Assembly: GCA_963971405.1 (NCBI GenBank)
Contig: OZ020492.1
Location: forward strand, 3,410,001-3,474,000
From: Psococerastis gibbosa
Lineage: Eukaryota; Arthropoda; Insecta; Psocodea; Psocidae
Direction of reading: 5' to 3'
DNA: 64,000 nt
Both the position numbers and the translations under genes were made by a program. Below the pieces are notes generated by a model. It searched no databases. It worked only from the letters and a program-made list of their open reading frames with translations, and was not told the DNA's origin. Positions 11,901-57,225 of the stretch are shown here, piece by piece (position 1 is the stretch's first letter; each line of letters opens with the position of its first letter).

Positions 11901-13969
11901 GTGAACGACACAATGTGCGATAAGGCTGCACAATGGGGTTGTAGAAACCTAAGTTAACTTTACAAATAAAATATGATATGACTGTTTTTCATGTCCATTG
12001 ACAAGTAAATTTAATGTGTGGGACACAATATGCGATAAAACTGCACGGAAACCTTGTATAGAAACCTAAGTCAGCTTTTAAAAACAAAACTTATATGATT
12101 GTTTTTCAGGCCTCCCGAAAACAAAAAAGGAACAATCAGCCCATCAGTAGGAGAGCGGAGTGACACGCCAGAAACTACGCGTCGGGAAATGGGCGCCTTG
12201 GTTTGTGTTACAGTATTTAACTAGAATAGGGCAGCCTAGTGAATGTGCATTTGAGCATGGTCCCTTGAATTGCGCTCTGCTGGCGAATAAACAATGCAGC
12301 GTATATCAAGCATCTTTAGTATCATGTTCTTTACATTAAGATATACTTATAGTACTCCAATAACGACAATGCACTTGCGTCCTCTCGAGTGAACTGTTTC
12401 TTACACATTTTTTTTATCATTCATGCCACTTTTAAAGGCTGCCGACCACCTAAAGCATATTCTAGGAAATGTATTTGGTTTGCCTTAACGCACGTTGTGA
12501 AATGCAACTAACGTTAATTGCTGTTAATCAAGTACTTGCCGTATCATGAAGACATTAATAATGTATTCGTGGATGTATACAGCATAGTGGGCAACTGAGG
12601 TCCAATGGATCCCATATACGCACATTTCTCTTGTTCACTAATGAAGAAGTGTATTTTATTTAACTCCATCATGCACGGATTTTGTCGGTCGTGTCTACTC
12701 TTTATGTCATTTATTTATCGTATGATCATGTTACTTTATTGGGAAATTATTTACGTAGAGCCTTAAGTCAGCACGGATTGATTAAACGTGAATATAATTG
12801 ATTTTTGTTGGCCAGCAGATGGAGATACCGGACAAACTGAGGCCATGGCTGACAGGTGATCGACTACGGGAAGACAACCACATTGTCTCACCGGCTGCTC
12901 TCAGTATTGACATGTTTCTCAATAGGTTTAGGCTTACCAAGTGGAAAAGAGGCCCTATAGACGAGTAAGTCAATAAAAATAGTTTTATACTCTTGTTGGG
13001 TTCTTTAAAATAAACTTTTTTAAAGACTTGGGAGAGCAGGCGGTTATTGCATGCTTACCAGGTGGAGGGTGTGTTTAGTAGCTTGCTGAGTTTTTGTTGA
13101 GTGTGAAATTATATAATCTCATTAAAATTGTTCTTGTTATGTTAATTTCAGACTCTGGGTGTGCGAGAAAATTACAACAGTTCTTAATGGAGTGAATGAT
13201 TGGTTTTACGATGCGGAGCTGGACCAGCACTTAAGAATTAAGGCGAAACACCCAAAACTGCAGAAAGCATCTGAAATTTACGGTGTGAATCATCTGCTGA
13301 TATTTTTCGGTAACAAACACATTTTCCTTAATCTTTATAAGAGTAAACTTGTCTTTATTGAACATTTGAAATTCATTTTTATCATTACTTCACATTGTTT
13401 ATTGCTGTTGCACTAATTCCGGGGTCAGCAACATTTTTTAGTAGCTGAGCCAAATTTTGAAATAACCAGATTTAGATCTTTTGGAAGAGACACACACCCC
13501 AAACCTAAAAATAAAACAACAAAATTGATGGTAATTAACTTCGTAAGAAACACCTTACAAGTAATTAGGTAGTAGTCTTTAATATACGAATGTATTATTA
13601 AAAGAAGGTATCTGTCAGGAAGTGTCATGTTCATTTCCCATTTACTTTGTGTATAGAGCCGGTCTTATAGTGAAAAGCCGCACCGATTGGGCCAAAAGCC
13701 GCTTGCCGCTCGTGAATCTCAAGTTGCCGACCCCTGCCCTAATTGATAATCATGCATGTTTTTCAGCCCGCCTGCCCGGCATTCAGCTGATGAATGATAT
13801 GACAGGCGAAGAGAAATCGATGATGAACACCACCATCAAGTACATGCTCGAATACCTAACACACGTGCGTAAACAATGTTTTCCTGACGACACTCTCGCG
13901 AATATGCTGCCATTGTGGCCCGATCTGATCAAGTGGATTAAAAATAACCTAAAACTCTTTATTGGTTAG
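5963..13969 (+). CDS. MRG15-like: MRG15/MORF4L1-like chromatin protein, copy A (7 exons, 296 aa)
   Basis: Exons: 5963-5978, 8568-8685, 10776-10934, 12110-12200, 12819-12964, 13152-13309, 13767-13969. All introns are GT-AG, phases agree and the total is 891 nt with one terminal stop. Residues 7-60 are a chromodomain (ERVLCSYGPLLYDAKC..., then WDEWVTEDKLLKYNDENL). The cage positions known in human MRG15 (Y26, Y46, W49, W53) correspond to Y18, Y39, W42 and W46, all present, so binding of methylated H3K36 is plausible. A lysine/arginine-rich linker follows (about 65-95). The MRG domain runs from residue 129 (MEIPDKLRPWL) through KASEIYGVNHLL to the end. The family joins histone acetylase and deacetylase complexes through that domain. 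Exon 1 (MFFAI plus a split Gly) is assigned because the same ATG, phase and donor context recur in copy B, with an in-frame stop upstream at 5927. The MRG part is very divergent from canonical MRG15 and lacks a recognisable LLYKFERPQY segment. The homology is clear; expression and function are inferred. Confidence 0.82.
6480..7461 (-). mobile_element. decayed hAT-type transposase remnant in intron 1 of copy A
   Basis: Reading the minus strand, 6620-6560 gives LRSAEAERGFSIVNHV, the diagnostic start of the hAT C-terminal dimerisation region. Near 6540-6480 a different frame gives LNDILGIRFNGPNELEKF, matching the family's terminal segment. An open stretch at 7201-7461 could be upstream transposase sequence but has no motif I recognise. 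The frame changes between pieces, so it is non-functional. Confidence 0.4.
7462..8105. other. intron 1 sequence, nothing recognised
   Basis: AT-rich intronic DNA of MRG15-like copy A. No coding or repeat structure noted. Confidence 0.4.
8106..8282. mobile_element. short hAT-like MITE with G/C homopolymer ends
   Basis: A 177-bp insertion with inverted ends containing GGATCCAG / CTGGATCC next to G-runs and C-runs. It is flanked by a perfect 8-bp direct repeat CTTGGTCG (8098-8105 and 8283-8290), the hAT target-site size. The same family occurs at 53844-54012 and in the 38.5 kb and 41 kb clusters. Confidence 0.75.
8722..10362. mobile_element. 1.64-kb near-palindromic Tc1/mariner-like element in intron 2 of copy A
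   Basis: The left arm (8722 to about 9530) and right arm (about 9572 to 10362) are reverse complements with few differences and a loop of only about 40 bp. The ends read CTACTAA inward. Each arm carries a decayed transposase-like stretch (for example NMGFQFYAAMKKSALTLRQM near 9435) resembling the helix-turn-helix/KKP.LT..H region of Tc1-type proteins. Copy B lacks it at the equivalent place (43610-43630), so it inserted after the duplication or was lost there. Two arms with almost the same sequence suggest a fold-back duplication of one element end. Confidence 0.7.
11613..12118 (+). repeat. tandem duplication in intron 3 that includes a splice acceptor
   Basis: Two direct units of about 240-255 bp (about 11617-11854 and 11860-12117) share ATGTAATTAAGCAATTTAAAG, CACAATGGGGTTGT and the closing TATATGATTGTTTTTCAGGC. 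The second copy of TTTTTCAG is the functional acceptor of exon 4 at 12110. The first, at about 11848, is an identical decoy that would run into a stop within about ten codons. Copy B has only one unit. Confidence 0.8.
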
Positions 13970-15654
13970 AAGGAAACATCACAGCCGGCCAACTAACCGG
14001 TTCAAGACGAAGCAGTAGAGTCTGGGCTTGAAAGCGTACTTTCAAACGTTCCGTCAACATGTTTGGTTTCTGGTCCTTAATCCCTCATCCCTCCTCACAG
14101 TATAAATATTGATATGAGGACTTTTCTCCAGCCCGAAGTGATGGTAAAGGCGGTCATCCATTTTTGGGATACTGAACAAAAGAGGAGTATTCCGTTCCTT
14201 CCTACTTCCGTATAAGTTTCCTTCGGTAAGTTTGACGCCATTGCGGGGTAAAATTGTGTTTTTGGGACCAAACTGCTTATGACGTCACAGTCAGCTTTGA
14301 CTTAGGTTTGGAATGCGTGGCACCAAAAGTAAGTTTTCCTTGGTAAATGTGACGGCCGTTTTGTTGGTGCCTCTAGTTCTTTTCAACTTGCAAAAAACTT
14401 TCCTTACCGCAATTACCTTCTAGTGGAAAAGAGGGCTTTACTGTCGATAGTTGTCAATGACGTCATATTTATTGAGTGAATCTTACTTGGAAGTTGGTGG
14501 AAATGGCTCTTAGAAGGGTTTTCAATTTCAATCCATTTAATGACTCAACGATACCTAAGTTATGGAGGAAACCGGTAGTTGGATTGTAAGGGATTTGAAT
14601 TTCGAGAGGGGGGACGAGAGAAACTTCTATTAGTTATCTTTTAAGGTGTTATTTGCAATGTCAACAGCACATGTTGACGATACGTTTATAAGTCCGCTAT
14701 CAAATTGACTACGGCCCATCCGCCCAGATTCTACAGCCTTCTCATCTGACTGCGATCGAAGAAGCCGCTGTAATTACACTGCTTTTAATAAAACCCTTTT
14801 ATTACATTTATTATAGAGCTACTACAGCCATATGTATTTCTGTACAATATGCGTTTTGATTGATTGATGATAGCCTTAGTCTAGTGAAATCGGGTGCACG
14901 TATGGGAGCAGTAAGTGGAAAATTAGGTATTCAGTGCATGAATTCCTGGCTCAATGAACTATGAAGACTTCAAAAGATTGTATCTCGCATGCTCCACAGC
15001 AACAGTTTAGACAAGGGGATGCGCACCAATATTTACATTAATAGGAGGAGGAATGGGTGTGGAGGTAGAACCCACAGAACAACATAACATATGGTAGAAC
15101 CCTTCTAGTTCATGACTAGCTCTCTGCTAGATCAGCTTGATTGCCGGTAGATGTCTTCATTACCTTTATAGTAGTTTTGTTCTGGGTTGGAGGTTAACTT
15201 TTAGCCCATACATGTAGAAGTTCCGTGGTAAGTAGTTTCAGGTTTAGGTACGATATTGATAATCCTATTAAGAGCTGCTTTTTAAAGTTATGGGTTATGT
15301 AATGTTTCTCAGACTTATGTCTTCAGCCTAATCCAACAAAAATGTCATGCCCATCGAATTAAAGCCACAGTATACATTAAGTTTATTGTTTAGTTGAGAA
15401 AAACGCCAAAGTCACGGAAAAACATATTATTCTATTAATTATCTTTGTGAATTTAAGACATCGGCATCGCTCTCGATCTTCACAGTCACTTTATCATACT
15501 GGCTGTGCGATTTTTTTTGGTTTCCATAATATGATTGGTTGCAGAAAATCTTGTTCATCCCATACGGTACCAAGTAATATTTCCAGATCCAGGCGAAAAT
15601 TCCTGCAAAAAAAATTCAATGCATCAGGAATCCTAAATAACCTCGAAGACTAGT
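13970..15654. other. duplicated flank downstream of copy A, with Penelope-derived pieces
   Basis: This non-coding block is collinear with 49930-51480 and then 58145-58500 of unit B; for example TATAAATATTGAT, CTTTTCTCCAGCCCGA and GATACGTT followed by AAGTCCGCTATCA occur in both. Parts (about 14660-14745 and 14940-15030) resemble the terminal repeats of the Penelope element at 17.1-18.2 kb. No protein-coding gene seen. Confidence 0.6.
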
Positions 15655-15870
15655 CTTGGCATGTGTAGAGTAGTGGTACGGGGTCTGATTTTCGCTCGAC
15701 ATGTTGTAGGTTCGAGTCTCAAACTCCCTGCCTCTTCTGATTCGGAGGGCACGAAAAGCAGGCATTCCCGGTCCTTCCAGGTAGAGTGTTAGAGAGGGCT
15801 TAGTAGTCCTAACTCCGCTAATTTGGCTTATTAATAGTACACAAAGCCATTAAACCGATTTATTCGTTTA
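15655..15870 (+). mobile_element. tRNA-derived SINE, present in both duplication units
   Basis: GTAGAGTAGTGGTACGGGGT resembles a pol III A box, and AGGTTCGAGTCTC about 30 nt later a B box. The body continues with GGTAGAGTGTTAGAGAGGGC and CCTAACTCCGCTAATTTGGC. A diverged, truncated head sits at 58495-58560 in unit B, so it predates the duplication. The body recurs reversed at 43700-43815. Confidence 0.6.
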
Positions 15871-15959
15871 CTCTACATTGATCTGATTAGCATGAATGAA
15901 AACCGTAAGATATAGTGGTGACCCTTGGAAGGTGGTGGTGGTGCAAAGTTTGGGTTATT

Positions 15960-16260
15960 GGGCGGAAGTCCGGCTCTAGGTAGAGGCAAGAAATTGGGTG
16001 CACCCAGGTCTGACTGGTAAGCTATTCTGTTTGTCTGCGGAAGTTTTATTCAATATTGCGAGCAATATAATTGCAAAGGCGGTACGTGACGAAGCTATAG
16101 AATCCGGGAAGATAGGCCGTGGTCGCTCTTCATAACTTTTCGTCGACACCTTCAGTGGAACAGCTATAGTTGCTGCTGAGCCTCCATGATAAAATTTTCG
16201 CAGTTCCACTGAAGATGTTCATGAAATGGCTAGAAGTACTCTTTGAGAACGACCGCGGCC
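15960..16260. mobile_element. Penelope-like terminal-repeat fragment
   Basis: Contains GAATCCGGGAAGATAGGCCG, CACCTTCAGTGGAAC, GTTGCTGCTGAGCCTCCA and GCAGTTCCACTGAAGATG, all diagnostic of the terminal repeats of the element at 17060-18230, in a shuffled, decayed arrangement. Confidence 0.55.
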
Positions 16261-17059
16261 TATCATCTCGGATTCTTCTGCTTCTTCGTTGCAAGCTATG
16301 CACTTAATTACTTTTAAACGAAACTTAGCGCGGCGAACCTCCACATTAGGTATGTTGGAACATGCTGCAGCCCAGCGGGGTTATAGGATTAATCTTTTCT
16401 TTTTCGGCATAATGTACTCACCCAGCACCGCAGCTACAATGTAATAAAAAGCGTGCATCCTAGTAGCACTGACACGTTACTCTTATAATGTACTCTTTTC
16501 CTGGCTTTGAGCTTTGGAGTTTCCTACAGCGCTTTATAGGCACCCATTGGCCTTGGCCAACGCACGATTATAATGATCGAAAGAGCCTACGCCAATTATT
16601 TTTATGAACGCTGTAATACCTACCTATAAACATGTAATAGACCCATTGGCATTTACTAACGTAAATAGTAATCGAAAGGGCTTGACCATGTGGTCACTGT
16701 CGTGCCTAATCATTAACAAGAAGTAATTATAAGATATCTCTATATGAGGTACCAATTCTACAGAGTTACAGTTACGGTACTATAAATGTATTGCGCACCA
16801 TTAAAATTTAATTGGCAATAAGAACGTTTTGTTACGAAGTTATTATACTTACTTTCAATGCCAGTTATATAGGCCCTTACAGTAGGCGACCCATAGGTCC
16901 CTTTTCAAGGCCCTGTATGTGTGAGTACGATATGGAATTTTCAAAGTATCTTTTATTTGATATTAAATGTTAATAGGTCATGCTGAAGAATCTGCAATAT
17001 GCCTATGCAGCCAATCCAGGCCAACTTTCTTCACTTCCCCCAATATCACCCGAAGAAAA
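16261..17059. other. end of duplication unit A and spacer
   Basis: 16450-16550 (GCGTGCATCCTAGTAGCAC, then TTTCCTACAGCGCTTT) matches 58566-58648, the last homology I can see between the units. After that no gene or repeat was recognised. Confidence 0.55.
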
Positions 17060-18230
17060 CCTCCAATAGATTGAATAGAATGAAGAATCAGTAGAATCCG
17101 GGCTGATGGGCCGTGTTCGAAATGAAAGCGAACTTCCAAACGTTTCGTCAACATATGTGGTCGACATCTTCAGTGGAACTGCGTAGACTTCTAAGATTGT
17201 ATCTTGGAGGCTCAGCAGCAACTGTGTGGGCAGGGGGGTGCGGGGGGTGTGCTCTTATATTTATACCAAGTTTCGGGGTGGTGGGGGGTGGAGGCTGAGT
17301 CTTCCTCATACCTGATCGGCTCCCTACTACCTGAACCCGATTTCCGGATGATGATGACATCAGTTTCTTCGTTGTGGCTTTGTTTAAAGCTGGATACCAA
17401 ATTCTATTAACTTTCAGTCCTTCCTCCTTTCTATTGAAGTTGTGAGGGTGCTTATAGATCTCTATAGCTTCTCTGGTCACTACTGGCCTACTCTGCCTTC
17501 CGTTCATCAAAGGAGTCTCCGATCGCATAGGTAAACTCTTCTTACGACACAATGTGAAAACTATTTACAAGCCTACGAGACAACTAAATAGTTTGTACAG
17601 GTCAGCCAAGGATTGCCGGGACCCATTGACGTCAGCAGGTGTCCACAGGATTCCATGTTCGTGTGGAGAAGTTTATATAGGTACTACTAAAAGTAGCATA
17701 AAGACCAGGATTGATGAGCATAAACGAAGCTGCCGTCTTCTACAGCCGGAAAAATCTGCAATTGCTGAGCATGTTCTAACACAAACCAGTCACATAATAT
17801 GCTTTCAGGACGCTACAGTACTATCTACTACTTCTTCATACCACCCCCGGCCCCGGTTACATATACAGATCTATAAGCACCCTCACAACTTCAATAGAAA
17901 GGAGGAAGGACTGAAAGTTAATAGAATTTGGTATCCAGCTTTAAACAAAGCCACAACGAAGAAACTGATGTCATCATCATCCGGAAATCGGGTTGAGGTA
18001 GTAGGAGCCAATCAGGTGTGAGGAAGACTCCGCCTCCACCCCCCACAACCCCGAAACTTGGTATAAATATCAGAGCACATCCCCCTGCCGACACAGTTGC
18101 TGCTGAGCCCCCAAGATACAATCTTAGAAGTCTACGCAGTTCCACTGAAGATGTCGACCGCAGATGTTGACAAAACGTTTGTAAGTTCGTTTTCATTTGA
18201 CTCCGGCCGTGAAAGCCTTTGCTGTTACAT
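17060..18230 (+). mobile_element. Penelope-like element fragment: GIY-YIG endonuclease with inverted terminal arms
   Basis: The open frame at 17554-18021 encodes a GIY-YIG endonuclease of the kind fused to Penelope reverse transcriptases: GVHRIPCSCGEVYIGTTKSS, KTRIDEHKRSC, EKSAIAEH, then IYKHPHNFNRKEEGLKVNRI and WYPALNK. The reverse transcriptase is absent. About 330-400 bp at each end (about 17080-17470 and 17868-18215) are inverted copies of one another, both including the IYKHPHNFNRKEE coding end and the GCAGTTCCACTGAAGATG repeat. Inverted arms and 5' truncation are characteristic of Penelope insertions. It matches the Neptune/Poseidon style rather than the second Penelope element at 39-40.9 kb. 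Confidence 0.75.
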
Positions 18231-18477
18231 AGATTGAAGAGAACGCTAGTCGTTAAGTCGCATTTTTAAAACCCCCAGATTTTCTGATGGAAGGTGTTTA
18301 GATAATTAATTAGTATACTTAGGGTTGTTTTACTTACTGATATTAGTTGTTTTCTTACTTGTGGTGGTTTTCAACCTTTCCCGAGCTCGGTATGGAAGAT
18401 CACCTTTCTTGATATAGATTCTTGCATCTAAATTAGCTATGCAGAAGCAGTTGAGGATTAAATACTATGATAAAAGT

Positions 18478-18864
18478 TGTGGGGACCACTTAGTCCCACA
18501 TGTGTAATAACCAGTCTGCTTCCAGCTTCACCTTTTTCCCTTTAGATGGCGCTGTTCACATTCAGATAATTCAATATTCCTCAATCTTCCTTTTACGTAT
18601 TTATTTCTCTTATTCAATAATATCTTTAATCTACCCTCTGTGTCTCATCAGCTCCTTTAGCTGTGGACACAGAGTTGGTTTTTCTATATGGAAGCAGGCT
18701 GGATCAAATTCAATATTAATTGTAAGCATGTATCGTTCTCGTCTCACAGCTCATATTGTAACCACTGTGTGTTAAATTACTCTAACTTGAGTCGAAGCAC
18801 TGCAATACAAACCAATTCAAGTCTACACTGCCTATTCAATTGCATCGTCCTTCAACAAGCTACA
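18478..18864 (+). repeat. 5' LTR of the Gypsy element
   Basis: 387 bp, TGTGGGGACC...AAGCTACA, no visible difference from 23391-23777. Confidence 0.95.
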
Positions 18865-18897
18865 TTGGTGACCCTCGACAACGGAACAAGCAGCCTT

Positions 18898-19255
18898 CCA
18901 GATTCCAGTTCCAGCTCCAGTTCCAGCCAGTTCCAGCCAGTTCCAGTTCCAGCCAGTTCCAGTTCCAGCCAGCTCCAGTTCCAGCCAGCTCCAGTTCCAG
19001 CCAGCTCCAGTTCCAGCCAGCTCCAGTTCCAGCCAGCTCCAGTTCCAGCCAGCTCCAGTTCCAGCCAGCTCCAGTTCCAGCCAGCTCCAGTTCCAGCCAG
19101 TTCCAGTTCCAGCTTCCAGCTTCCAGCCAGTTCCAGTTCCAGCCAGTTCCAGTTCCAGCTTCCAGCCAGTTCCAGCCCGTTCCAGTTCCAGTTCCAGTTC
19201 CAGCTTCTAGCCAGTTCCAGCCCGTTCCAGTTCCAGTTCCAGCCTCCAGAACGTC
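18898..19255 (+). repeat. CCAGTT/CCAGCT hexamer-based minisatellite in the Gypsy leader
   Basis: About 350 bp of TTCCAG/CTCCAG hexamers arranged in higher-order units such as CCAGCTCCAGTTCCAG, lying between the primer-binding site and gag. Two forward frames and one reverse frame are open through it because the hexamer lacks stops, so the long frames here are composition artefacts rather than evidence of a protein. Confidence 0.85.
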
Positions 19256-19330
19256 TCATCCGGCCATAGGCGGTGGAAACCACCCCGGAGCAGCTACATT
19301 CACCGCAGCAGCACAGCCACAACCTGCAAG

Positions 19331-20206
19331 ATGCCGCAGACCACAGCCACAACCCCTACAGCTACGACCGCTACAGCTACGACCGCTACAGCTACAACTG
19401 CTACAGCCACAACACCGACACCCACGGCTACAACCAAGATGACAGGCCCTGCTAGTACGATGGCAGTCTCGGTCAAGCTTCCACCCTTCTGGACACAGTC
19501 GGCCAACCTGTCACCGGCACTGTGGTTCACTCAAGCGGAGGCTCAGTTCGCACTTGCTGGGGTCACAATGGAAACGACGAAATATTACCACGTCCTTTCA
19601 GCGCTCGACCAAAGTACCCTCAGCGAGATCTCAGATTTGTTAGCTGCCCCAGTACCAGTAAACCCATACACTGAGCTAAAAACGCAGTTAATCCAACGAA
19701 TGAGTCTTCCAGCAAGCAGTCGCATTCAGCTACTAATGTCGGAAGACATAGGGGACAAAACTCCCAGCTCTTTTCTCCGGAGACTGCGGGCCCTCGCAGA
19801 GAAAGCCATATCAGACTCGGTTTTACGCACCATTTGGACGTCTCGCCTCCCGCACGCTATACAATTGGCAATCATCGGTCATGATCACCTGTCACTAGGT
19901 GACGTCGCGAACCTCGCCGACAAGATGGCCACCATCAATTCAGCAACACGTGACCGGATTCTTGAGTGCACAATGGCCCCTGTGGACCTATTGAAGACGT
20001 TAACAGAGAACGTCGCGGCTCTACAGGCACAGTTCGCCGACAGATACGGACAACGTGCCACACAGCCACGGTTCCAGCGCCAGTTCCGTTCACCAGCGCC
20101 TAAACAAGACCCAACTTGGTGTTTTTACCACCAAACCTATGGGAGGAAGGCCAGAAAGTGCCAGCAGCCATGCAGATTTCCGAAAAACGACGATCGCAGC
20201 CAGTAA
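19331..20206 (+). CDS. gag: Gag of the CsRn1-clade Gypsy element
   Basis: 291 codons. After a threonine/alanine-rich start (encoded by a short CTACAGCTACGACCG repeat at about 19355-19410) comes the clade's signature [20 protein letters not shown], followed by EAQFALAGV and [11 protein letters not shown]. The C-terminus carries the unusual CHCC box ([19 protein letters not shown]) known for CsRn1-type Gag instead of the usual CCHC knuckle. Its end overlaps the start of pol in another frame, an arrangement this group normally handles by programmed frameshifting. Confidence 0.88.
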
Positions 20207-23200: not shown

Positions 23201-23379
23201 AACCGTCTCACCAGTCTACGATCAACCCCCCGCATCAGCATCCTGCTCAAGATAAACCTCAGGAGAAGGTCTCCTCACCACTTCCTGCCACTGACGTCGT
23301 GCCGACACCACCGACTCGCACCACTCGCTCAGGTCGTCACGTCCACGTTCCACGACATTTCTCCGACTTCCAGTCTTAG
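20116..23379 (+). CDS. pol: Pol of the CsRn1-clade Gypsy element
   Basis: 1087 codons. Protease motif LIDTGSD near residue 59 (about 20295); reverse transcriptase with [10 protein letters not shown] and YIDDVL (near 21207); RNase H with LVTDASD (near 21658); integrase with an HHCC zinc finger (HHPGIA...CVNC, about 22240-22350), then [15 protein letters not shown] and [11 protein letters not shown] as catalytic-core landmarks. The order protease-RT-RNase H-integrase places it in Ty3/Gypsy. No C-terminal chromodomain is recognised. Confidence 0.93.
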
Positions 23380-23390
23380 GAGGGGGGTAA

Positions 23391-23777
23391 TGTGGGGACC
23401 ACTTAGTCCCACATGTGTAATAACCAGTCTGCTTCCAGCTTCACCTTTTTCCCTTTAGATGGCGCTGTTCACATTCAGATAATTCAATATTCCTCAATCT
23501 TCCTTTTACGTATTTATTTCTCTTATTCAATAATATCTTTAATCTACCCTCTGTGTCTCATCAGCTCCTTTAGCTGTGGACACAGAGTTGGTTTTTCTAT
23601 ATGGAAGCAGGCTGGATCAAATTCAATATTAATTGTAAGCATGTATCGTTCTCGTCTCACAGCTCATATTGTAACCACTGTGTGTTAAATTACTCTAACT
23701 TGAGTCGAAGCACTGCAATACAAACCAATTCAAGTCTACACTGCCTATTCAATTGCATCGTCCTTCAACAAGCTACA
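23391..23777 (+). repeat. 3' LTR of the Gypsy element
   Basis: 387 bp, preceded by the polypurine tract AGGAGGGGGG and followed by the AAGT target duplicate. Confidence 0.95.
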
Positions 23778-24073
23778 AAGTAAACGATTTTATAAAAAGT
23801 ATAAAGTGCTGGTAACGTTTGGTTGCAGATGTACAGAGAGAGATTTTTGTGGACTTGCAAGTAGATGATAGTTTTTCATAGGTGGCGCACGAGTCGCCAG
23901 TCACAGGTTAGGCGCCAATATTTAAATTGTGCCTATATTGGGCCTCGGCAGAATGATTGAAATAAAGTAAAGAAGTAAGAAGTAAATTTGAATAAATTAA
24001 ATAATAAAATAGAAATATTATCCTACAGATTCTACTTGAAATAAAATTAAAATAAGAAAATAGAAATATTATA

Positions 24074-29326: not shown

Positions 29327-29625
29327 GGTAGGTAGATTTCTATTTTCTCTAAATATATAAATATAAAGATACAAAAAGAGAAATTAAATATCAGAGAAAA
29401 AAAAAGAATAATAAATAGGTTATAGTTAATAATTTATAACAGTAATAATGACTGATTGGCAAATGAGTAGCAAAGCAGTAACTTGGTATACCGTGTGACG
29501 ACAAGCACGGACAGGAATTGAGTACGTCTTAATAGAGCGATTTTTCATTATGAAAATAAAATTATACGAAGAAGAAAGGGGTTAAATTAGGACTGTAAAT
29601 AGGGGTTTTTTGACGAAGGACCAGA

Positions 29626-29958
29626 TAGATAATTAATTAGTATACTTAGGGTTGTTTTACTTACTGATATTAGTTGTTTTCTTACTTGTGGTGGTTTTCA
29701 ACCTTTCCCGAGCTCGGTATGGAAGATCACCTTTCTTGATATAGATTCTTGCATCTAAATTAGCTATGCAGAAGCAGTTGAGGATTAAATACTATGATAA
29801 AAGTAAACGATTTTATAAAAAGTATAAAGTGCTGGTAACGTTTGGTTGCAGATGTACAGAGAGAGATTTTTGTGGACTTGCAAGTAGATGATAGTTTTTC
29901 ATAGGTGGCGCACGAGTCGCCAGTCACAGGTTAGGCGCCAATATTTAAATTGTGCCTA
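29626..29958 (-). repeat. 5' LTR of the BEL/Pao element (uninterrupted)
   Basis: 333 bp on the right side of the minus-strand element. It contains the intact AAAAGTAAACG site into which the Gypsy element inserted in the other LTR. Confidence 0.93.
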
Positions 29959-29963
29959 GTGTT

Positions 29964-40100: not shown

Positions 40101-43100
40101 AATAACAATTTCAATCTCAACCTAATAGACAGAATCCTACAACATCACAAAATCAAACACAACCTCAAACTAATTTACCCCCCAGAGAGATTAAACCCGG
40201 TAACCAATAAATCATATTTCAGGTTACAATACATAGAAAAAATCACAGAAAAAATAAGTAACCTCATTTCTTCTACAACAGACAAAACACCAGCCCCGTA
40301 CAACCGCAACAATTTGGCCAATAAACTCATGAACTGCAAAACCAAACCAGAAAAGGAAAAAAAAAGGCAATGGAGTTTATCGTCTAAATTGTAACGATTG
40401 TAACGCAATTTACATAGGCCAAACAGGCAGAAGCTTTAAAACTAGGGTCAGAGAACATATAACAGGTATAGGAGACACCAACAGCACATTCGCGAAACAC
40501 CTTAACTCGGAAAATCACACATTCGATCCTCACAATTGGACAGCCCTACACAAAATAAAGAAAAGTTACACTTTAAATTTTTTTGAAAATGTTGAAATCA
40601 AAAGAGCTTTACACAATAGGGAAAAATTAACAAACGACATAGCATTCACACAATCATCCCCTCTAATAGATCTAGCTAGTAGGTTAGGAATAGGTAACCA
40701 GCCACGCCCCCTCCCACCCCCTCCTCCCCCCCGCTCCCAGTCCTATATAAACCAAGGTTTCCTCTCCCTAGTCACATTTGCATCTTCTCGAGTTGAGCAA
40801 GTCTCAAATCGCAGATAAGGTGTAACTGTGCTAGTGGGTTTCCCTCTGTAGATGGCAGTTCTTGCCGAAAGCGCTCAGGGTTTTATACTAACACAAGTGG
40901 GTTTCTTAGACAAAGTTAATTTCTTAACGATTATTTGGGTTTTACTAATTCGGGTTGTTATAATAAGTTTTTGTTATTTTTTGTTTATTAAAATGAAATA
41001 CCACGAAGTCACGAGTAATGTAATTATTTATATTTAGTCCAATCTTGCCATGTTTGTCTATTTAATTGCATTGGGACTAAATTTGAAGTGTTCAACTTCC
41101 TAGTCTCCTACCTATACCAGGGGTTGATCCAGCCCATTGGGGGGGGGGGGGTAATTTGGTTCAAAATATAATATACATATGTAGTATCTATTACATTACA
41201 ACGTAATAAGTTAGGCAACTTACAACAGGCTAGCTTATAAGAATTTGGGGGCAGCTCCCCCCCTTCATCTGTCCTTGACTACACTTCAACTAGAATAAGC
41301 AGAATAGAATAAGAGTAAGTAGTCTCTCTGGCTAGACCCCATGGACGGACACAGGGAGACAGCTACCCCCCCCCCCTGGATCCACCCCACGGACGGAGAC
41401 AGGGGGGCGGCTATCCCATCACCCCTCTGGATCCACCCCATGGACGGAGACAGGGGGACGGCTATCACCCCCCCCCCCAAAAAAAAATTTCGGTAAATCT
41501 ATTTTATAAGTTAATTTTTATAACACGCTCTAATTTAATCGATACTACATAGGTTTTTCCTATTTTGACCCACAGCTACCCCCCCCCCCCCATGGGCTGG
41601 ATCCGTCCCTGATCCACCAACACCTGCATTCGAATTTTTAAAATTAGTATTAAAAAAATCGCATTGAACACAATGGAGTCAACCACTTCTTGAAATAATA
41701 AGCCAATTTGTCACGTGACCAAAAGTGAAGACATTTGTTCTGCATGGGCTAGGTGTCGTGATAGCGATCCATGTTTATCAATGTATCCAGCTAATCAGAG
41801 CAGAGGCCACGGTCACTCGCAGATGTCTTCTCACGAATTATTATTATTATATTCTCACTGTACGTAATTTTGAAAAAACAGTACATTTTTTTTTTTAAGT
41901 AAGTATTTATTAATCAAAAAACGCAATAGAATTAATAAATATCCAAGGGCACAGTAAGTGCACCCTGTGAAGGGGACTTGCGTCGTGGCCCTTATAACTA
42001 TTACAAAACAAAAACATTGCATATTACATTACATAACAAATAATTATAAATAATGGTCTAAAACACTTAAGTTCAGTAAAAGGCGTGTTATAATCTATTT
42101 TTTTTTTTTTTTTGTGATTGTTCTAAATTTTAAAAAACTGTCAGTATAATACCGTACTTTAATTTCCTTAGGCAAAGCATTAAAAACCTTGACGGCTCTG
42201 AAATTTGGCGATTGTTTAAAGTGCTCAACGAAAGGACGCTCTGTTTTTAAGTTATTGGCTACGCTGTGTCTGGTATGAAGGGCATGAGTGGAACTCACAC
42301 TATTTATTTGAGAATTTTTTAAAGTCAATAGCAGATTAACACAAAAAAAATGCAAAAAATGAGGCACCTTACAATCTTCATAAATTTTAGTCGTCGGGGT
42401 TCTACAAGGCATAAATAAAGATATTTTTAAGAACTGATCGATTGCTGGTCGGTATGTGGCGACTTAGGCACGTGTACGTACAAGCCCTTGCCTATGCAGA
42501 TGACGTAGTCCTTCTAGCAGATACTCCAGCAAAACTATAAAATGCAGTAACGGATTGGTCAGAAATTCTAAAGGAGAGAGGGATGCGGTTGAACCTATCG
42601 AAAAGCAGGTAACGATGGTGGCACGCACAGATGACCAGGTAGAGCCACTGATCGTAATGTGCATGGGACAACGGCTAGAGCAAGTGGAGAACTATAATTA
42701 TCTGGGCACAGCAGTGAACCAGACAGGCAAGCTCCAGACCGAAATAAGAAACCGAGTCCAAAAGACAACAGCAGCCTACTTCTCTACATGCAACACCTTT
42801 TTCGGCAAGAGAGCAGTCGAACGGAAGAAAAAGACCAGAGTCCAACAAGCCATCTTGAAGCCGTTTCTCCTTTACGGGAGCGAAAGCTGGACGCCTACAA
42901 CAAGTGACCTGAGTAAAATAAACGCGACTCAGATGAAGTGTCTAAGGCGGATTGCTGCTCGAACAAGGTGGGACCGAATCCGAAATGACCGCATCAGGCA
43001 AGACCTGCAATTGGATTCCATAGAGAAAAGAATGGAGAACTAGCAGTTACAATGGTTCGGCCACGTCCAAAGGATGGACGAGTACAGGACCACCCGGAGG

Positions 43101-46100
43101 TTGGCGGAAGCATGGCCTCAAGGAAGAAGACCCATTGGCAGACCGAGGACAACTCTTGAGGAAAGGATTGTACAACTCACCGGAGCATGAGGGAAAACAA
43201 TGGCCGAGCTCAAGGTGTTAGCGTCCGACCGGGGCGAGTTCCGAAAATGGGTTCGCGCACGCGGCACTAAGGGGGAAGAAGAAGAAGCGTTTTTCATGTA
43301 TTAATTAATTATGATTTTAAAGCCTACTTAAACTAGAACAATGTGCTCCTGCGTATTAGAAGCTACTGCAACAGATTTTCTCGGCCTAATCATGATTATG
43401 GCTCTGGTATCTAAACAAATCTACATTTTAGACTGCCTTTCATCTGATTGTTATTTTCATTGTTTCAGGAGAACGGGTTCTGTGTTTTTATGGACCTTTG
43501 ATTTATGAGGCTAAGTGCCTAAAGCATCGCATCGGCGAGAATGGTAACTGCGAATATTGGGTTCACTATGCAGGGTGGAATAAGAAGTGAGTAAATATAG
43601 TGGTATAGGTGTATTCTATAATATATGAGTAGCTTTATTTCCTATAATGCTCACAAAACAGCAATAGAACAACTTAAATATATATATGAATGTTGACGTT
43701 TTCATTCTATTACTAAGTCAACCTAGCGGAGTTAGGGCTATAAAGCCCTCACATTCAACTAGGTCTGGGGCCGCCTACTCTACGTGCCCACCTCCGAAGC
43801 ACGGTCAAGAAATAAGTGTCAGCTTATAACGAAACTAGTTCATCATCTCCTTCATCTGAATTCCTTCAATTTCTGCAGCATAATTATTGGTGGGATGAGA
43901 CCTCGGACCCTAGTGGGCACGACTATAGAAGTAATTTTAAGTTTTTTTTGATTAATGTTTGACGTGTAAATGTAGCCTGATGAGATTATAGGAGGCAAGT
44001 AACTAGTTTGTACAAAGAACTTGTTCCCCAATGAAATACTGCAAGATGATAAAACTATTGCAGTGCTCTCGCATTGCTCCAGTGACTGAGGCATATCTAT
44101 TGTTGTGTTCATCGTAAGACATTTCTTATGGGACAAGTAATATTTATCAAATTACTTGTCCACATTATATCTAAAATAATAAATTAGCCTCTATTTCGCA
44201 GATGGGATCAGTGGGTACCTGAAGAAAAACTCCTCAAATACAACGATGAAAATTTGGAGATGAAAGACGAAGTTAAGAACATACAATTACAAAATTCGAA
44301 TCGCGGCGGTAGGAGGGCACAAAAGCGCAGGGGAGAGGACTCAGACCAAGACTCCGAAAGCAGGTACTATTAGTTTGAACTTTCTCTTTTCATGAAACAT
44401 TTTTAAATTATTTGATTAAACTATTTTATTGTAGCTGATTAGATGTAGCCTTGATAGTTGGTTACGAGTCCGGCTAGATATAATTTACTCAGTTTCGTAC
44501 ATTGAAAGCTAAGTGCTGCCTTAGTGTGCCCCAACACCCACCAGGCTACTTTAGATGGATTCAGGTCATGTTATGGTTCTATTTACCATATAGGAGGCGG
44601 TAAGCCTGTTAAGTTTATATCCGCAGTGGGCTTCCATTTGTCTTGGAACGGTGGTGTTGAATTAGTGTCTTAATTTCTCTGATATTAACTATTCCACAAT
44701 GGCTGCAATAAGTTCATAAGTAATATTATATCGTTGTTACATTTTCATATAGCTGATATAGTCCATTGACAAAACATATATTTCATTTGAAGGACGCAAT
44801 GTGCGATAAAAATGCACTGAAACCTTGTATAGAAAGTCTGCTTTAAAAAAACAATAACAAATACGATTGTTTTTCAGGCCTCCCGAAAACGAAAGCCGTG
44901 AATCAGTAGTCAGCAGCCCTGCATCAGTTTGCAGCAGCCCTGCATCAGTTGGCAGCAGCGATGGAGATAGCGTGGTGGATATAGGCGCCTTGGTTTGTGT
45001 TACAGTAATTAACTAGAATAGGGCTCTCTAGTGAATGTACTTTTGGGCATGGCCCGTTGAATTGCGTTCTACTGGAGAATAAATAATACAGCATATAGTA
45101 TCATGTGCTTTACATAAGGAACATACAATACTCCTATAACGACAATGTGCTTGCGTACTCTTGAGTGAACTGCTTCTTACACTTTTTTTTGTCATTCATG
45201 CCTTTTACAAAGGCTGCCGTCTACCTAAAGTATATTCTAGGAAATGTGTTTGGTTTCCTTTAACGCACGTTACGAATTGCAACAAACGTTAATTGCTGTC
45301 CCACTTGCCATATCATGAAGACATTTTATAGTGTATTCGTGGATGTATACAGCATAGTGGGCAAATGAGGTCCAATGGATCCCATATACGCACATTTGTC
45401 TTGTTCGGATTTTGTCGTTCGTGTCTACTCTTTATGTCTTTTATTTACAGTATGATCATGTTAGGTTGTTGCGAAATTATTGACGTTGAGCCTTAAGGGC
45501 AAACCGGAGTCGCCGATATTCCATTTCTGTGCAAACTTCAATTTCTCATGAAATATCGAACGTAGAACAATGAAAAAATGCTGAGTCGCAAGAAGAATTT
45601 TTTCTCCTAATTTTGATAAATAGTAACATGCAATCATCAATACCGATCGGCTATAGTTAGTGAACTTGATGCGCAAAAAATAACGGTCACTTAGGAGTTC
45701 AAGTTGAAGGAGTTCATCAACTGTGGCGAATCGGGTTTAGTTATACTATATATCCAAATTAGGAGAAAAAATTCTTCATGCGACTCTATTTTTTCATTTC
45801 ATTTTTTTGCGTTCCATATTTCATGAGAAATAGAAGTTTGAACAGAAAATGGAATATGAACTACTCCGGTTGGCCCTTAATTCAGCGCGGATTGATTATG
45901 AAAGAAGAAAGAAAGAAAATGACTTTATTTTCCATATGGGCGAATTTTGGGCCTTTCGGCCCACTCTTACAATTAACCCATAATATTAATTTAAATACCT
46001 TCTATTTATAATAAAACTTAAAATAAAAACTAAACTAAAAGCGACCATTTCCACACCATTTATACAACATACATACTCATAAAATAATCCAGACACGTCC

Positions 46101-49100
46101 TCTTAAATTTATTTAAACTTTTTTCATTTCTGATTGGATCCTGTAGGGAGTTCCAAAGCCTCACCTTCTGCACCGAAAAGGAAGAAGATAAGGCTTGGGA
46201 TATATGGATTAGAAATGATAATTTATTTTTTTCTCTTGTATTCCGTCCATGGAAAGAGGAGAAAGGACGGAAAAGGGGTGTAAGGTAGGGAGGTGTATGC
46301 GTCTCAAGTACGTTATGCAAAGTACGGAAGATATGCGCATTTCTTCTTTCGTTGATTTTTAACCATTTTAATTTTTTAAAGTATTTTGGAATGTGTTCAT
46401 CCCTCCGCACTCCCACTACGTACCTTAAAGACACATATTCAGAGATTTTTGGAGTTTATTGGATTGATAGCCAGCCATATTTAATTGGACCACATCACAG
46501 TAATCAAAAATCGGCAGTATCAGAGATCGCACCAATATCGCCTTTGTTCTCTCTGATAGAAAATTTTTCATATTATACTAGTATAATACACCCATATACC
46601 CTTTTTCGTGTTAAATTTATGTGTGCATCCCAAGACAGGGTTTCATCGAATATGAGCCCTAGATTTTTGTCTACTTTGGAATAGGTTAACTTCCCTCCAA
46701 CGCTCACCTGAGCTCCCGCGGAAAGATCTACACCGGCCAGTTGCTTTTTTGTACCTATTGCCATGAGTTGGTTCTTTTTGGGTTTATTTGCAGGCCACAA
46801 GAAACTGCCCATTCGTTTATTTCGGTAAGTTGCCGAGTCATTTCTGTTACTGTTTTCTGCAGTTCCCGTTTCTGCGTCTGCTTATAAACCTGAACGACGT
46901 CTGCATAGCAATGGTATGAGGTGTCAGGTTGCATAACCTCATTTATGTCATGAATGTATAATGCAAATAGAAGTGGAGCCAAAATGCTACAGGCAAATTG
47001 ACCCACTCAGATTTTTGCTCCTCGGTGCCGACCACCCGCTGCTTTCTACCGACTAAATAAGAACGGAACCACTCCTGCGTCTCATCTGAGACGTTAAATT
47101 GACACTTTAATTTACATAATAAAACATCGAAATCCACTGAATTGAAAGCTGCACTAAAATCTAATAGGGTTAATAGAGTAATTTTTTGCTTATCCATGCC
47201 TTCTCTGATATCCTCTGTTATTTTGATTAAAGCAGTTTCAGTGCCATGCCCAGTTTTAAAACCTGATTGTAGCCTATCTAGTAGGCTACAATTTGTTAAG
47301 TACTCAGAAAATTGTTTCTTTACTAGTTTTTCTAAAACTTTGGACAGACAAGGGAGAATAGAAATTGGCCTAACATGGCCACATGGCAACAGACTTTACT
47401 TTGGGAAGTGGTTTTACAAGGGCCAGCTTCCAAATTTCCGGAAAATAATTTGATGTTAATGAACTGTTTACTATATCCGTAATACACGAAAGAGTTTTCA
47501 TTAGAATTTTTTTGATAAACTTGATGCTCACCCCATCGTTGCCTATGGCATTGGATTTTATGCTATAAATTGCCTCTTCAACTTCAGTTTCGGGCACTTG
47601 CTTAAGCACAAACTTTGGGAATGGACACAATGATCCCCTGCTATTTATACGGTTCATAGTTGCTGTTTTATTGTGCTTACTCATCTATTAGCTGAAACGA
47701 ACACACATTCATTCCTGGTGTCAGGTACAATAATGTCAATTTCCTAAGATCACTAAAATTACTAGCCATCGTTTCGCTTGACACCACTAAATGCCGTAAT
47801 CAGTTACAAGAGTTGCTGCGCGCATGGCCCTCTTGAGGGCAGGACAAGAAGGGTCCGCAGCACTGTGGTCAGTCACTGATTGCCTCGCTCTCACGCAGTT
47901 CGCACAACGGTACCTCGACTTATGCATCACAGTGCAGTCTTTATTCGAGTGATTTTCAGTGCACAACGAACACGACTGGACTGGAGCTTTGCAGTACTTG
48001 GCTGGGTGACCGAAACATTGACATTAGAAGCATCTGGTGACTGGAATGTGATCTACAACACGACAAGCATTGAAGCCGATGAAAATTCTTTCCCTCGACA
48101 GCAGACTTCGCCGCACGAGTTGTGAACATTGTGCATTGCAGATCACTGTCCCCGGACGCTTTGAGTTCTTGACAAGGCTCAAAAGTTTGAATTCGGACCC
48201 AAATAAGGCATCTTTGACATCATCCAAGTTTTGACGGAGTATAGCTTTCAGCAATTGTGAAGAGTTTAGATCATCAGGCACATCACAAATCTTCAGTCTC
48301 GGCCAGCTGGACCTGGACGGCTCAGCCTTAAGGCCGCAGTTTGTGATAGCACTGCTCCTCAGAAGTTTGTCGTTCTCAGCCTGTGAGGGGGTGGAAACGA
48401 TTACAGATTTTCCTGACTTTCTTAAACTGACTATCTTCCATCCTTCCGATCAACAGTGATTGAATATTATTGATTTTTGTTGGCCAACAGATGGAGATAC
48501 CGGATGAGCTGAGGCCATGGCTGGCGGGACATCAAATCAATGCGCTGAACGCCATTAATTATCCGGCTGTTGTCAATATTGACGCGTTTCTCGATATGTT
48601 TAAGAATAACAAGAAGGGAAATGTCACTAGGATCGAGTAAGTCAATAAATATAGTTGTCTACTCTTATTGGGTTTTATTTTTTATTTTGTTTCTTTTCGT
48701 GCCCATTTCGTTGCGGAGACGTTTGTTTTTGGATTGCTTCGCGATAGCCAAATATTTTATCCGATTTGCCCTGTATTTATGGCTTGGATTAGAGTCATTA
48801 TTGTAAATTAGGCCGATATTTTCTTTCACGTCCCCGAACGCGGACACATAATACCGGTTTTTGGATCACAGAAAGATAATAAATTCTAAGGCTTGGGAGA
48901 TCAGGCGGCTATTACATGCTTACCAGGTGTAGGGTGTGTTTTTTTAGCTTCCTGAGTTTCTGTAGATTGTTATGTTAATGTTGGAGTTTTAGTGTTATAT
49001 TTGGGTGTTGGTATTATTCGATTTCCGTGTTCAATATAATCTATTCTAATTCTGATTATGAATTTCAGAATCTGGGTCTACGAGAAAATTAAAGAACTTT

Positions 49101-49929
49101 TTAATGAAGCGTGTAATTGGTTTACCGGTGCGGAACTGGACCATTACATAGAAACAAAGGCGGAACACCCAACACTGCGGAGGGCATCTCAAATTTACGG
49201 TGTGAATTATCTGCTGATATTTTTTGGTAACAAAAACATTTTTCTTAAACATTTTTGTAAGAGTAAACCTGTTTTTATTCCACGTCTGAAATTGATTTTT
49301 ATCATTCCTTCACATTGTTTTTTGTTGTGACCCTGATTCTGGGGTCCCTTTTTTGGTAGCTGAGCCGAATTTCGAAGCATCGAGATTTAGATCTGTAACA
49401 GCCACACATACCAGACCAAAACATAAATCAACGAAATTAATGGTAATCAAATGTAAAAAAAAAAAATCAGCTTTCAGGTTATTAGGTGTCTTTAATTTAC
49501 GAATATATTATAATAGGAAGGTAACCATCTGGAAGTGTCATAATCATTACCTATTTAATTCTTGTGTATAGAGCCGGTCTTAAAGGGAAGATCCGCACCC
49601 ATTGAGTCAAAAGCCGCTTGCCACTCAGGAGCCTCACTTTGCCGGCCCTGCCCTAATTGAAAAATATCATGCAGGATTAATTTTTTTTTATTGCAGCTCG
49701 CCTGCCCGAAATATTGCTGATTAAGGATATGGTAGACGATAAGAAACTGCAAATGTACACAACCATCCAGGAGATGCTCGTGTACCTGACTACCATACGA
49801 AACATCTGTATTTCTGCCGAGATTCTTGAGAAAATGATACCAACTTGGCACAGCCTGCTTATGTGGATTGCCCGAAACCTAACGGTCTTCTTTAAACCTC
49901 ACGTCAAAGCATTACAGACGACCGACTAA
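34183..49929 (+). CDS. MRG15-like: MRG15/MORF4L1-like chromatin protein, copy B (7 exons, 315 aa)
   Basis: Exons: 34183-34198, 43469-43586, 44202-44363, 44878-44992, 48491-48636, 49069-49226, 49697-49929. GT-AG introns, consistent phases, 948 nt in total. Exon 1 gives MLYSE plus a split Gly leading into ERVLCFYGPLIYEAKC, as in MRG15 (an in-frame TAA lies at 34168). The cage residues Y18, Y39, W42 and W46 are present, with WDQWVPEEKLLKYNDENL closing the chromodomain. Exon 4 encodes a serine-rich linker with an internal 18-nt repeat (SSPASVCSSPASVGSS). The MRG domain starts at residue 138 (MEIPDELRPWLAG) and continues through RRASQIYGVNYLLIFF to ARLPEIL and the end. Its C-terminus is 10 residues longer than copy A. 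Intron 1 (9.3 kb) and intron 4 (3.5 kb) are swollen by transposons absent from copy A. Open frame plus preserved splice sites argue that it is functional; expression is unknown. Confidence 0.85.
34562..34824. mobile_element. hAT-like MITE with perfect 8-bp target duplication
   Basis: Inverted ends CAGTGCCGGGGTTGG and CCAAACCCGGCACTG, 263 bp, flanked by CTTCGGAC at 34554-34561 and 34825-34832. No coding capacity. Confidence 0.85.
34833..35950. other. intron 1 of copy B, nothing recognised
   Basis: Two similar short stretches (TGCATGGACTTGATACATA at about 35371 and TGCACCGACTTGATACATA at about 35908) form a direct repeat about 540 bp apart. No gene seen. Confidence 0.35.
35956..38160 (-). mobile_element. 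P-type (THAP9-like) transposase, decayed, in intron 1 of copy B
   Basis: Six successive minus-strand open pieces read through a P-element transposase: coiled-coil (about 38160-37840); HFYSTGANKFVRKFLILPHK and ITSINGEPG; LALIIDSMAIRAQKIY with a candidate catalytic Asp (about 37601); VSVRSLTCDGTQSNL (Asp about 37345); FLDACHMLKLARNAL; MNVSLAAQTLSSGVGDAIDV; IDEAFDVLNSR; YLLTYKVSEDHLELLFNYIRG. The order and motifs match THAP9/Drosophila P transposases. The zinc-binding THAP domain is missing, possibly in an upstream exon (a splice acceptor seems to lie at about 38132) or lost. At least three frame changes are evident, so it is inactive. Terminal repeats were not found. Confidence 0.82.
38166..38881. 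other. intronic spacer with a G/C-rich MITE fragment
   Basis: 38545-38757 contains AGGACGGAGGG, a G-run, GCTGCTCCCCCC, then TAATCGATCCTACATG.GTTTTTCC and a C-run before GGGCTGG..GGTCCCTG. The same order of landmarks occurs at 41340-41612, so it is the same hAT-like MITE family as 8106-8282. The remainder has no recognised feature. Confidence 0.5.
38882..39000 (+). repeat. dispersed non-coding repeat, copy 3 of 4 (partial)
   Basis: GAACCGGTCCGAGTTTACTC, ATGCTTTCCAATTTATCAAT and AATTTAACACCTAAAAC match 59948-60285. The second half is missing and a Penelope element begins just downstream. Confidence 0.65.
39049..40863 (+). mobile_element. Penelope-like retroelement with RT and GIY-YIG domains, direct terminal repeats
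   Basis: Direct repeats of about 95 bp (CATTTGCATCTTCT through AGATGGCAGTTCT) at about 39049-39146 and 40769-40863 are Penelope-style pseudo-LTRs. The reverse transcriptase is open at 39402-40055: VSFDVKNLFTNIPVPEVRKL, IGLPMGSSLSPLLAEIFMDN, RYVDDIFCIW (YVDD at 39756-39767), LNFLDLTI. Upstream pieces NKGLKYCPDIGL and LVKLHKPNQPIRPVVSYNSA lie in other frames. The GIY-YIG endonuclease is read from 40372 (GVYRLNCNDC...IYIGQTGRSFKTRVREH). The reading frame is interrupted, so the copy is inactive. It sits in intron 1 of MRG15-like copy B, in sense orientation. Confidence 0.85.
41118..41612. mobile_element. cluster of G/C-homopolymer hAT-like MITEs with internal tandem repeat
   Basis: Left end CAGGGGTTGATCCAGCCCAT and right end ATGGGCTGGATCCGTCCCTG (ends about 41611). 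Within it, about 41331-41475 holds three tandem units of about 51-55 bp built on GATCCACCCCACGGACGGAG and ACAGGGGG.CGGCTATC. It looks like one MITE inserted in or fused to another. Confidence 0.55.
41887..42425 (-). mobile_element. 3' end of a CR1/Jockey-group LINE
   Basis: A minus-strand frame (42412-42095) encodes the conserved LINE tail SVSSTHALHTRHSVANN, RAVKVFNALPKEIKVRYYTD, SFLKFRTI. A T-tract on the plus strand at about 41887-41900 is consistent with a 3' poly(A) tail in minus orientation. Confidence 0.6.
42440..43285 (+). mobile_element. 3' fragment of an RTE-like LINE
   Basis: QALAYADDVVLLADTPAKL (YADD box at about 42490) opens the fragment, followed by MRLNLSKS. A long frame (42555-43043) reads EQVENYNYLGTAVNQTGKLQ, LLYGSESWTPTT and ATQMKCLRRIAARTRWDRIR, then in the continuation WFGHVQRMD and GRRPIGRPR, the classic C-terminus of these LINEs. 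It ends in a GAA-rich tail (43272-43286). At least two frame changes and stops make it defective. Homology with unit A resumes just after the tail, at about 43290-43300. Confidence 0.75.
43700..43815 (-). mobile_element. tRNA-SINE body fragment, reversed, in intron 2 of copy B
   Basis: Reverse complement contains TCGGAGGTGGGCACG, GAGGGCTTTATAGCCCTAAC and TCCGCTAGGTTGACTTAGTA, matching the SINE body at 15735-15850. Absent from intron 2 of copy A. Confidence 0.6.
45497..45876. mobile_element. TTAA-flanked MITE in intron 4 of copy B
   Basis: 380 bp with imperfect inverted ends GGGCAAACCGGAGT and ACTCCGGTTGGCCC, flanked by TTAA (45493-45496 and 45877-45880). Copy A has the empty site CCTTAAGTCAGC at 12761-12772. 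TTAA duplication suggests a piggyBac-like mobiliser. A second copy of this end starts at 52483. Confidence 0.85.
45896..48457 (-). mobile_element. CR1/Jockey-group LINE with ORF1 and RT remnants, in intron 4 of copy B
   Basis: Reading the minus strand: an ORF1 with RERIFIGFNACRVVDHIPVT then CF.CQCFGHPAKYCKAP (48281 to about 47970), a gag-like zinc knuckle typical of Jockey LINEs; RT from 47684 with RPISILPCLSKVLEKLVKKQ, LLTLLDFSAAFNSVDFDVLL and a degenerate CYADVVQVY in place of .YADD; and the C-terminal LINE tail (46434-46060). The endonuclease is missing and several frame changes are present. The 3' end has AATAAA and a TTTC-rich tail in minus orientation. A short GATTGA occurs at both edges (45890-45895 and 48458-48463), and copy A has one copy (from about 12776). 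Confidence 0.8.
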
Positions 49930-52005: not shown

Positions 52006-52050
52006 CCTGATTAGGTCATCTTATTAATCCTACTAAAGGCTGATTTTTAA

Positions 52051-57214: not shown

Positions 57215-57225
57215 TTATGATGACC

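Follow-up and report, generated by a model that had tools for sequence, protein, structure and literature searches.

Several histone-modifying complexes have MRG15 as a common subunit, and the protein is regarded as strongly conserved. The HP1 family of chromatin proteins contains no MRG domain to our knowledge. For rhino, a member of that family, positive selection has been described in the hinge and the shadow (interaction) domains, and four of the five HP1s of D. melanogaster are described as constrained (PMC1183528). Positive selection has also been described in a chromosomal complex of insects, condensin II; in that work, Mrg15 is called an important cofactor, and the Mrg15-binding motif of Cap-H2 is well conserved in 18 Drosophila species (PMC6759200). 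MRG domains bind FxLP-bearing partners across an extended surface or hydrophobic groove (PMC8701324). Among the open-access papers listed, no report of positive selection on MRG15 paralogues was found, which is weak evidence of absence given that subscription papers lay mostly outside this scope.

The window, the whole stretch of 64,000 nucleotides that was analysed, corresponds to C20:3410001-3474000 in the 409-Mb genome of Psococerastis gibbosa. It harbors two homologous blocks, each with one MRG15-like gene copy, termed A and B.

8384-16535, plus strand: duplicated block around copy A; its aligned noncoding pieces are about 0.16 diverged from block B
8568-8685, plus strand: copy A exon 2, first part of the chromodomain (GERVLC...GWKK); AG/GT splice sites, open frame, Pfam
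10776-10934, plus strand: copy A exon 3, end of the chromodomain (WDEW...) and basic linker; splice sites and frame, Pfam
12110-12200, plus strand: copy A exon 4, linker; the most diverged exon, with 36 of 91 aligned sites differing from B
12819-12964, plus strand: copy A exon 5, start of the MRG domain (MEIPDKLRPWL...); splice sites and frame, Pfam, block alignment
13152-13309, plus strand: copy A exon 6, MRG domain; splice sites and frame, Pfam, block alignment
13767-13969, plus strand: copy A exon 7, end of the MRG domain and stop codon; splice sites and frame, block alignment
43287-58645, plus strand: duplicated block around copy B, lengthened by insertions
43469-43586, plus strand: copy B exon 2, first part of the chromodomain; splice sites and frame, Pfam
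44202-44363, plus strand: copy B exon 3, end of the chromodomain and linker; A is one codon shorter
44878-44992, plus strand: copy B exon 4, linker; exceeds A by 24 bases, in frame
48491-48636, plus strand: copy B exon 5, start of the MRG domain; splice sites and frame, Pfam, block alignment
49069-49226, plus strand: copy B exon 6, MRG domain; splice sites and frame, Pfam, block alignment
49697-49929, plus strand: copy B exon 7, end of the MRG domain; A is 10 codons shorter

Joined together, exons 2-7 form a single open frame of 291 codons in A and 310 codons in B. Exon 1 of A and B was looked for and not found, and the gene models comprise exons 2-7.

Further copies were found by family and protein searches of the genome. 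Copy D (C20:3160195-3165555) is a recent duplicate of A that is 96% identical to it over 7.1 kb and has an intact frame. Copy F, on C19, carries open MRG exons 5-7 with intron edges near-identical to those of A, from which it differs at 3 of 33 sites where intron 4 ends and at 5 of 50 where intron 6 begins. In copy E (C20:16148600-16162599), exons 2-3 of the chromodomain precede several repeated exon 4/intron 4 segments, and no MRG exons were found in the 14 kb read there. An additional exon-2 match is located on C20, and tblastn with A and B detected no third copy within 100 kb on either side of the window. The contig C12 contains three MRG15-like genes, a, b, and c, of which b and c were used as a control pair. 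Their noncoding divergence, taken from the aligned pieces around exons 5 and 6 only, is 85 of 514 sites (0.165), as compared with 0.163 for A and B.

Several other features accompany the copies. Exon 4 of B contains a short in-frame tandem repeat (SSPASV.SSPASV) that gives the longer linker. In copy A, the 3′ end of intron 3 and the splice-acceptor region of exon 4 are tandemly duplicated (11618-12116; 82%, 266 bp), and D matches here too. Intron 2 of A harbors a large near-palindromic element (8739-10350; opposite-strand self-match of 89% over 1631 bp) that is present in D and unmatched in B. Intron 4 of B appears, from an alignment gap, to carry an insertion that is absent from A (about 45500-48460); a minus-strand frame within it (46943-47395) resembles reverse transcriptase. 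A possible last exon of another duplicated gene lies on the minus strand at about 15426-15605 and 58260-58440; its frames are open in A and B, and the counterpart in D of the former is interrupted by a 371-base insertion. The region 18299-29958 is taken up by nested retrotransposons, in which a presumably Gypsy-like element (identical 387-bp repeats at 18478-18864 and 23391-23777, ORF 20104-23379) apparently sits inside the terminal repeat of a presumably BEL/Pao-like element (ORF 24074-29383, minus strand). Both insertions look recent, given the 100% identity of their matching repeats. Penelope-like reverse transcriptase and GIY-YIG-like frames (39225-40818 and 17458-18021) as well as a Harbinger/HARBI1-like transposase fragment (57226-57717, minus strand) were named by eye.

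A and B are intact chromodomain plus MRG-domain genes, in agreement with the MRG15-like identity that the initial annotation had assigned to them. The chromo-barrel/Tudor-knot domain is recognized above cut-off in both copies by the Pfam Tudor-knot and MSL3_chromo-like models (PF11717 and PF22732), and the MRG domain (PF05712) scores 40.7 bits in A and 34.2 bits in B at a cut-off of 22.8. The closest solved structure to B in a search of the PDB is human MORF4L1. Among 5.8 billion proteins, the best 10 of 56 matches to B show 30-35% identity over 86-93% of its length, and the 8 of these 10 with a named organism come from lice, wasps, and a sea squirt. The residues Y, Y, W, and W, which we take to be the aromatic cage for methylated H3K36, are present in A, D, B, b, and c. 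The chromodomain is well kept, with 28-32 of 35 strongly conserved columns retained in A, B, and D. In the MRG domain, the same copies keep 10 of 24 such columns in exon 5, 12-14 of 27 in exon 6, and 2-4 of 16 in exon 7; the numbers for b and c are 17-18, 17-20, and 10-12, respectively. Over half of the strongly conserved MRG columns are thus replaced in A, B, and D, the exception being exon 6 of B (14 of 27 kept). Aligned to ten animal MRG15s, A shows 28-30% identity over the whole protein and short deletions in the MRG half. The C-terminal PPEYHRK-type tail that most of these ten proteins carry is absent from A, B, and D, and also from b and c. The absence of the tail and the replacement of most conserved MRG columns mark A, B, and D as diverged paralogues rather than MRG15 orthologues.

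The frames and splice sites, described as intact at the outset, are so throughout exons 2-7 of A and B. When the neutral evolution of A is simulated at 0.187 or 0.37 substitutions per site, a mean of 5.9 or 9.3 internal stops accumulates, and only 8 of 5000 and 0 of 5000 simulations, respectively, stay free of stops. In the noncoding alignment of A and B, 21 of 33 indels break the frame of three; 5.7 frame-breaking exon indels are expected and none is seen (p=0.003). Both results point to reading frames that are kept by selection. A decay of the copies as pseudogenes is unsupported.

The noncoding sequence of A and B differs at 493 of 3032 sites (0.163), with single segments ranging from 0.07 to 0.21 except for one 8-site segment without differences. 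The divergence of exons 2-7 is 0.16, 0.26, 0.40, 0.33, 0.20, and 0.35, and it rises abruptly at the borders of exons 3, 4, 5, and 7. Most manual counts of the initial annotation are reproduced. Exon 5 (146 bp in each copy) differs at 48 of 146 sites, and the stretch CTTGGGAGA...CTGAGTTT of intron 5 is close to 90% identical. The codons of exons 5, 6, and 7 contain 27, 23, and 37 amino-acid-changing and 2, 3, and 8 silent differences (27, 23, and 36 against 2, 3, and 7 by eye), where the silent-only tally undercounts synonymous change because codons with multiple hits hold synonymous differences too. The 15 differences in the first 105 ungapped sites of intron 4 are likewise found, but this stretch adjoins exon 4 and not, as had been stated, exon 5. 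At the sites that do touch exon 5, 2 of 30 differ in intron 4 before it and 4 of 38 in intron 5 after it.

Exons 5-7 taken together differ at 151 of 507 sites versus 534 of 3220 other sites (Fisher p=1.7e-11), and when the exon mask is shifted circularly, 24 of 4094 shifts reach this excess. For exons 3-7 the corresponding values are p=4e-16 and 15 of 4094 shifts. The claim that the exons differ more than the introns stands for exons 3, 4, 5, and 7, but not for exon 6 alone (32 of 158 sites, p=0.23; 1367 of 4094 shifts) or for exon 2, which is at the noncoding level (19 of 118). CpG hypermutation of the exons does not account for the excess, as non-CpG sites still differ at 192 of 656 positions in exons 3-7 versus 467 of 2972 in noncoding sequence. 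There is no excess of transitions either (102 transitions and 126 transversions in exons 3-7, 236 and 257 in noncoding sequence).

Such a pattern could also arise if gene conversion had acted on the introns, making them alike in the two copies, while the exons retained an older and greater divergence; the primate colour-vision genes provide a precedent. Such conversion would agree with exonic silent sites that also exceed the introns and with the slight overdispersion of noncoding differences at 100 columns (p=0.03), although none is detected at 30 or 60 columns (p=0.26 and 0.25). However, noncoding divergence is near-uniform in the introns, the 3′ flank, and beyond, and the flanks outside the gene have not diverged further. 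The lowest divergence is found in the 30 and 38 sites next to exon 5, whereas hitch-hiking around protected exons would predict the opposite. Moreover, the control pair b-c has an equal silent-to-noncoding ratio with conserved proteins. The conversion of introns alone, which had been put forward at the start as evidence that would speak against selection, is accordingly unsupported and appears very improbable.

Pairwise Ka/Ks alone was judged too coarse for the question, and codons with gaps were dropped from the pairwise counts. By NG86, exons 5-7 of A and B contain 33.5 synonymous and 115.5 nonsynonymous differences (Ka/Ks 0.91), and Ka/Ks is 0.69 in exons 2-3. By maximum likelihood, omega reaches 1.24 (0.79-2.00) in exons 5-7 and 2.06 (1.08-4.30; LR 4.23) in exons 5-6, which are a post hoc subset. 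With dS fixed at the noncoding level, dN of exons 5-7 becomes 2.3 times the neutral value, but dS itself is higher than that level (p=0.009). A matched comparison of the two pairs covers 224 shared codons and leaves out exon 4, which is not alignable to b and c. In these codons, pS is nearly the same in A-B (0.281) and b-c (0.285), whereas pN is 0.251 versus 0.092, mean Ka/Ks is 0.87 versus 0.27, and the nonsynonymous to synonymous differences are 134:39 versus 49:40 (p=0.0003). A and B stand out by their nonsynonymous rate, which has risen to about the silent rate. Silent exon sites exceed noncoding sites in both pairs, with an odds ratio of 2.02 (p=0.0023) in b-c and 1.99 (p=0.0007) in A-B. 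Part of the excess of exons over introns is thus a general feature of these exons or an effect of which introns stay alignable. Exons that change faster than introns, taken initially as a signature of diversifying selection, cannot alone carry this meaning, since the constrained pair b-c shows the same at its silent sites.

A branch model fitted to the tree that joins A, D, B, b, and c assigns an omega of 1.20 to the A/D/B clade and of 0.32 to b and c (heterogeneity p=1.6e-6). Exon 4 is again left out of the trees and junction codons are dropped. The value of 1.20 for exons 2, 3, and 5-7, calculated without F, is not different from 1 (p=0.36). For exons 5-6 the clade yields an omega of 2.01 (p=0.027 versus 1). 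When F is added, omega is 1.11 for exons 5-6 (p=0.64) and 1.23 for exons 5-7 (p=0.24), neither of which differs from 1, and the value near 2 for exons 5-6 is not upheld. The expectation that Ka exceeds Ks in exons 5-7 is not borne out for the domain mean, be it by NG86 (0.91), by pairwise likelihood (1.24), or in the clade with F (1.23). The comparisons indicate that purifying constraint on the MRG exons of the A/B/D clade has, on average, been lost, and that b and c, which are as diverged as A and B at silent and noncoding sites, are held under purifying selection.

A mean omega near 1 is what relaxed constraint by itself would produce. Extra copies that are partly dispensable and still translated would let the MRG domain drift at the neutral exonic rate around a conserved remnant, and the excess over introns would arise because alignable introns underestimate that rate. 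The silent exon sites of the constrained pair b-c, which also exceed noncoding sequence, fit this explanation, and so does the recent pair A-D. Over all exons, 19 nonsynonymous and 2 synonymous changes separate A from D, and the nonsynonymous rate of 0.0276 for this pair is not different from the noncoding rate of 0.0203 (p=0.21; 98 of 4827 sites without the inverted repeat at 8739-10350, as used in the tests, or 170 of 6384 with it). Exon 7 contributes a single nonsynonymous change; exon 5, with 7 nonsynonymous and 1 synonymous, lies above noncoding sequence (p=0.011, uncorrected).

Relaxed constraint alone is, however, at odds with the site models. For the four sequences A, D, B, and F and the 165 codons of exons 5-7, M2a is favored over M1a (LR 15.6, p=0.0004) with 31% of the MRG codons at an omega of 4.6; these models do not include recombination among paralogues, which can mimic site-wise selection, and are part of several tests made. 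The preference for M2a is lowered but persists when multinucleotide changes are allowed (LR 9.8, p=0.0075), also if F is then removed (LR 13.6, p=0.0011), and across the models about 30% of the exon 5-7 codons have an omega of 4-7. By pair, M2a is preferred in A-B (LR 14.0, p=0.0009) and not in b-c (LR 0.55, p=0.76), a single, less changed pair with less power as a control. In the A-B pair alone, selection is not demanded once multinucleotide changes and a free silent rate are allowed (p=0.22). The two top-ranked codons are located in exon 5, six and eight residues after PWL, and encode R/Q/N/T and D/E/L/N in A/D/B/F, respectively. Furthermore, the intact frames are very unlikely without selection on the protein. 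Some of the gene must therefore be under constraint, and sites above 1 are then required to bring the mean close to 1. Relaxed constraint as the only process is possible, though we would not expect it to be the full explanation. Positive selection on part of the MRG domain can be proposed with moderate confidence. Of the diversifying selection that the initial annotation had read from the locus, the site models with MRG codons well above 1 retain a part, whereas the domain mean stays near 1 and the intron yardstick is misleading.

Exon 7 does not follow the other MRG exons in every respect. Its third positions differ at 28 of 67 sites, and the ratio of its dS to Ki is 3.4 (p=0.0003). A silent divergence this high is seen in 0.1-0.2% of simulations in which dS is set to Ki, and even at a 2.1-fold rate 2% of runs reach its third-position divergence. 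These values would be explained if conversion had overwritten some exons, chiefly exon 7, with the sequence of a more diverged paralogue and so raised silent and replacement divergence together, and more paralogues are indeed present in the genome. A general 2.1-fold rise of silent and replacement change, whether by exon replacement or by hypermutation, is nevertheless rejected for exons 5-6, where 99.9% of simulations reach or exceed the observed third-position divergence. Exon replacement also needs breakpoints near splice sites, and the silent change at conserved amino acids of exon 7 amounts to 8 of 30 codons versus 3.9 expected (p=0.03, uncorrected, for one of six exons). Replacement of exons is considered unlikely overall, although exon 7 may have been partly replaced, and the high silent rate of exon 7 means that one process may not fit all exons.

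The reading that we prefer, with a probability of roughly 0.6, is that after duplication one MRG15 clade retained its histone-reading cage, while positive selection together with relaxed constraint acted on its MRG domain. The histone-binding half would continue to read methylated H3K36, and the MRG half would have been altered repeatedly by positive selection against a background of relaxed constraint. The altered half may then bind changed or competing partner proteins, so that the copies would dock different proteins. A tentative extension, which we hold to be doubtful, concerns the whole expansion (A, B, and D on C20, F on C19, the relic E, and the exon-2 match on C20). It could form a fast-evolving set of adaptors in genome defence or meiotic conflict, in which each copy reads the same histone mark with an MRG face remodelled to keep up with an antagonist or a shifting partner. 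One clade selected in its docking domain next to an equally diverged clade under constraint would amount to a natural experiment, in which a chromatin adaptor changes partners and keeps its histone mark.

Compared to the MRG15/MORF4L1/Eaf3 family, A and B share the chromodomain with the Y-Y-W-W cage and the MRG domain, but their MRG half differs by its deletions, its replaced conserved columns, and the missing tail. The closest precedent is rhino within the HP1 family (PMC1183528). Like the A/B clade, rhino is a member of a conserved chromodomain family; it belongs to another family, however, and has selected codons in its chromodomain too (PMC1183528). Its case also drew on population data and ovary expression, whereas A and B are known here from sequence alone (PMC1183528). 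The dynamic history of duplicated chromatin readers in insects is shared with the HP1 gene family of Drosophila (PMC3380853). In the condensin II complex it is the Mrg15-binding motif of Cap-H2 that is conserved, whereas at this locus it is the MRG side that diverges (PMC6759200).
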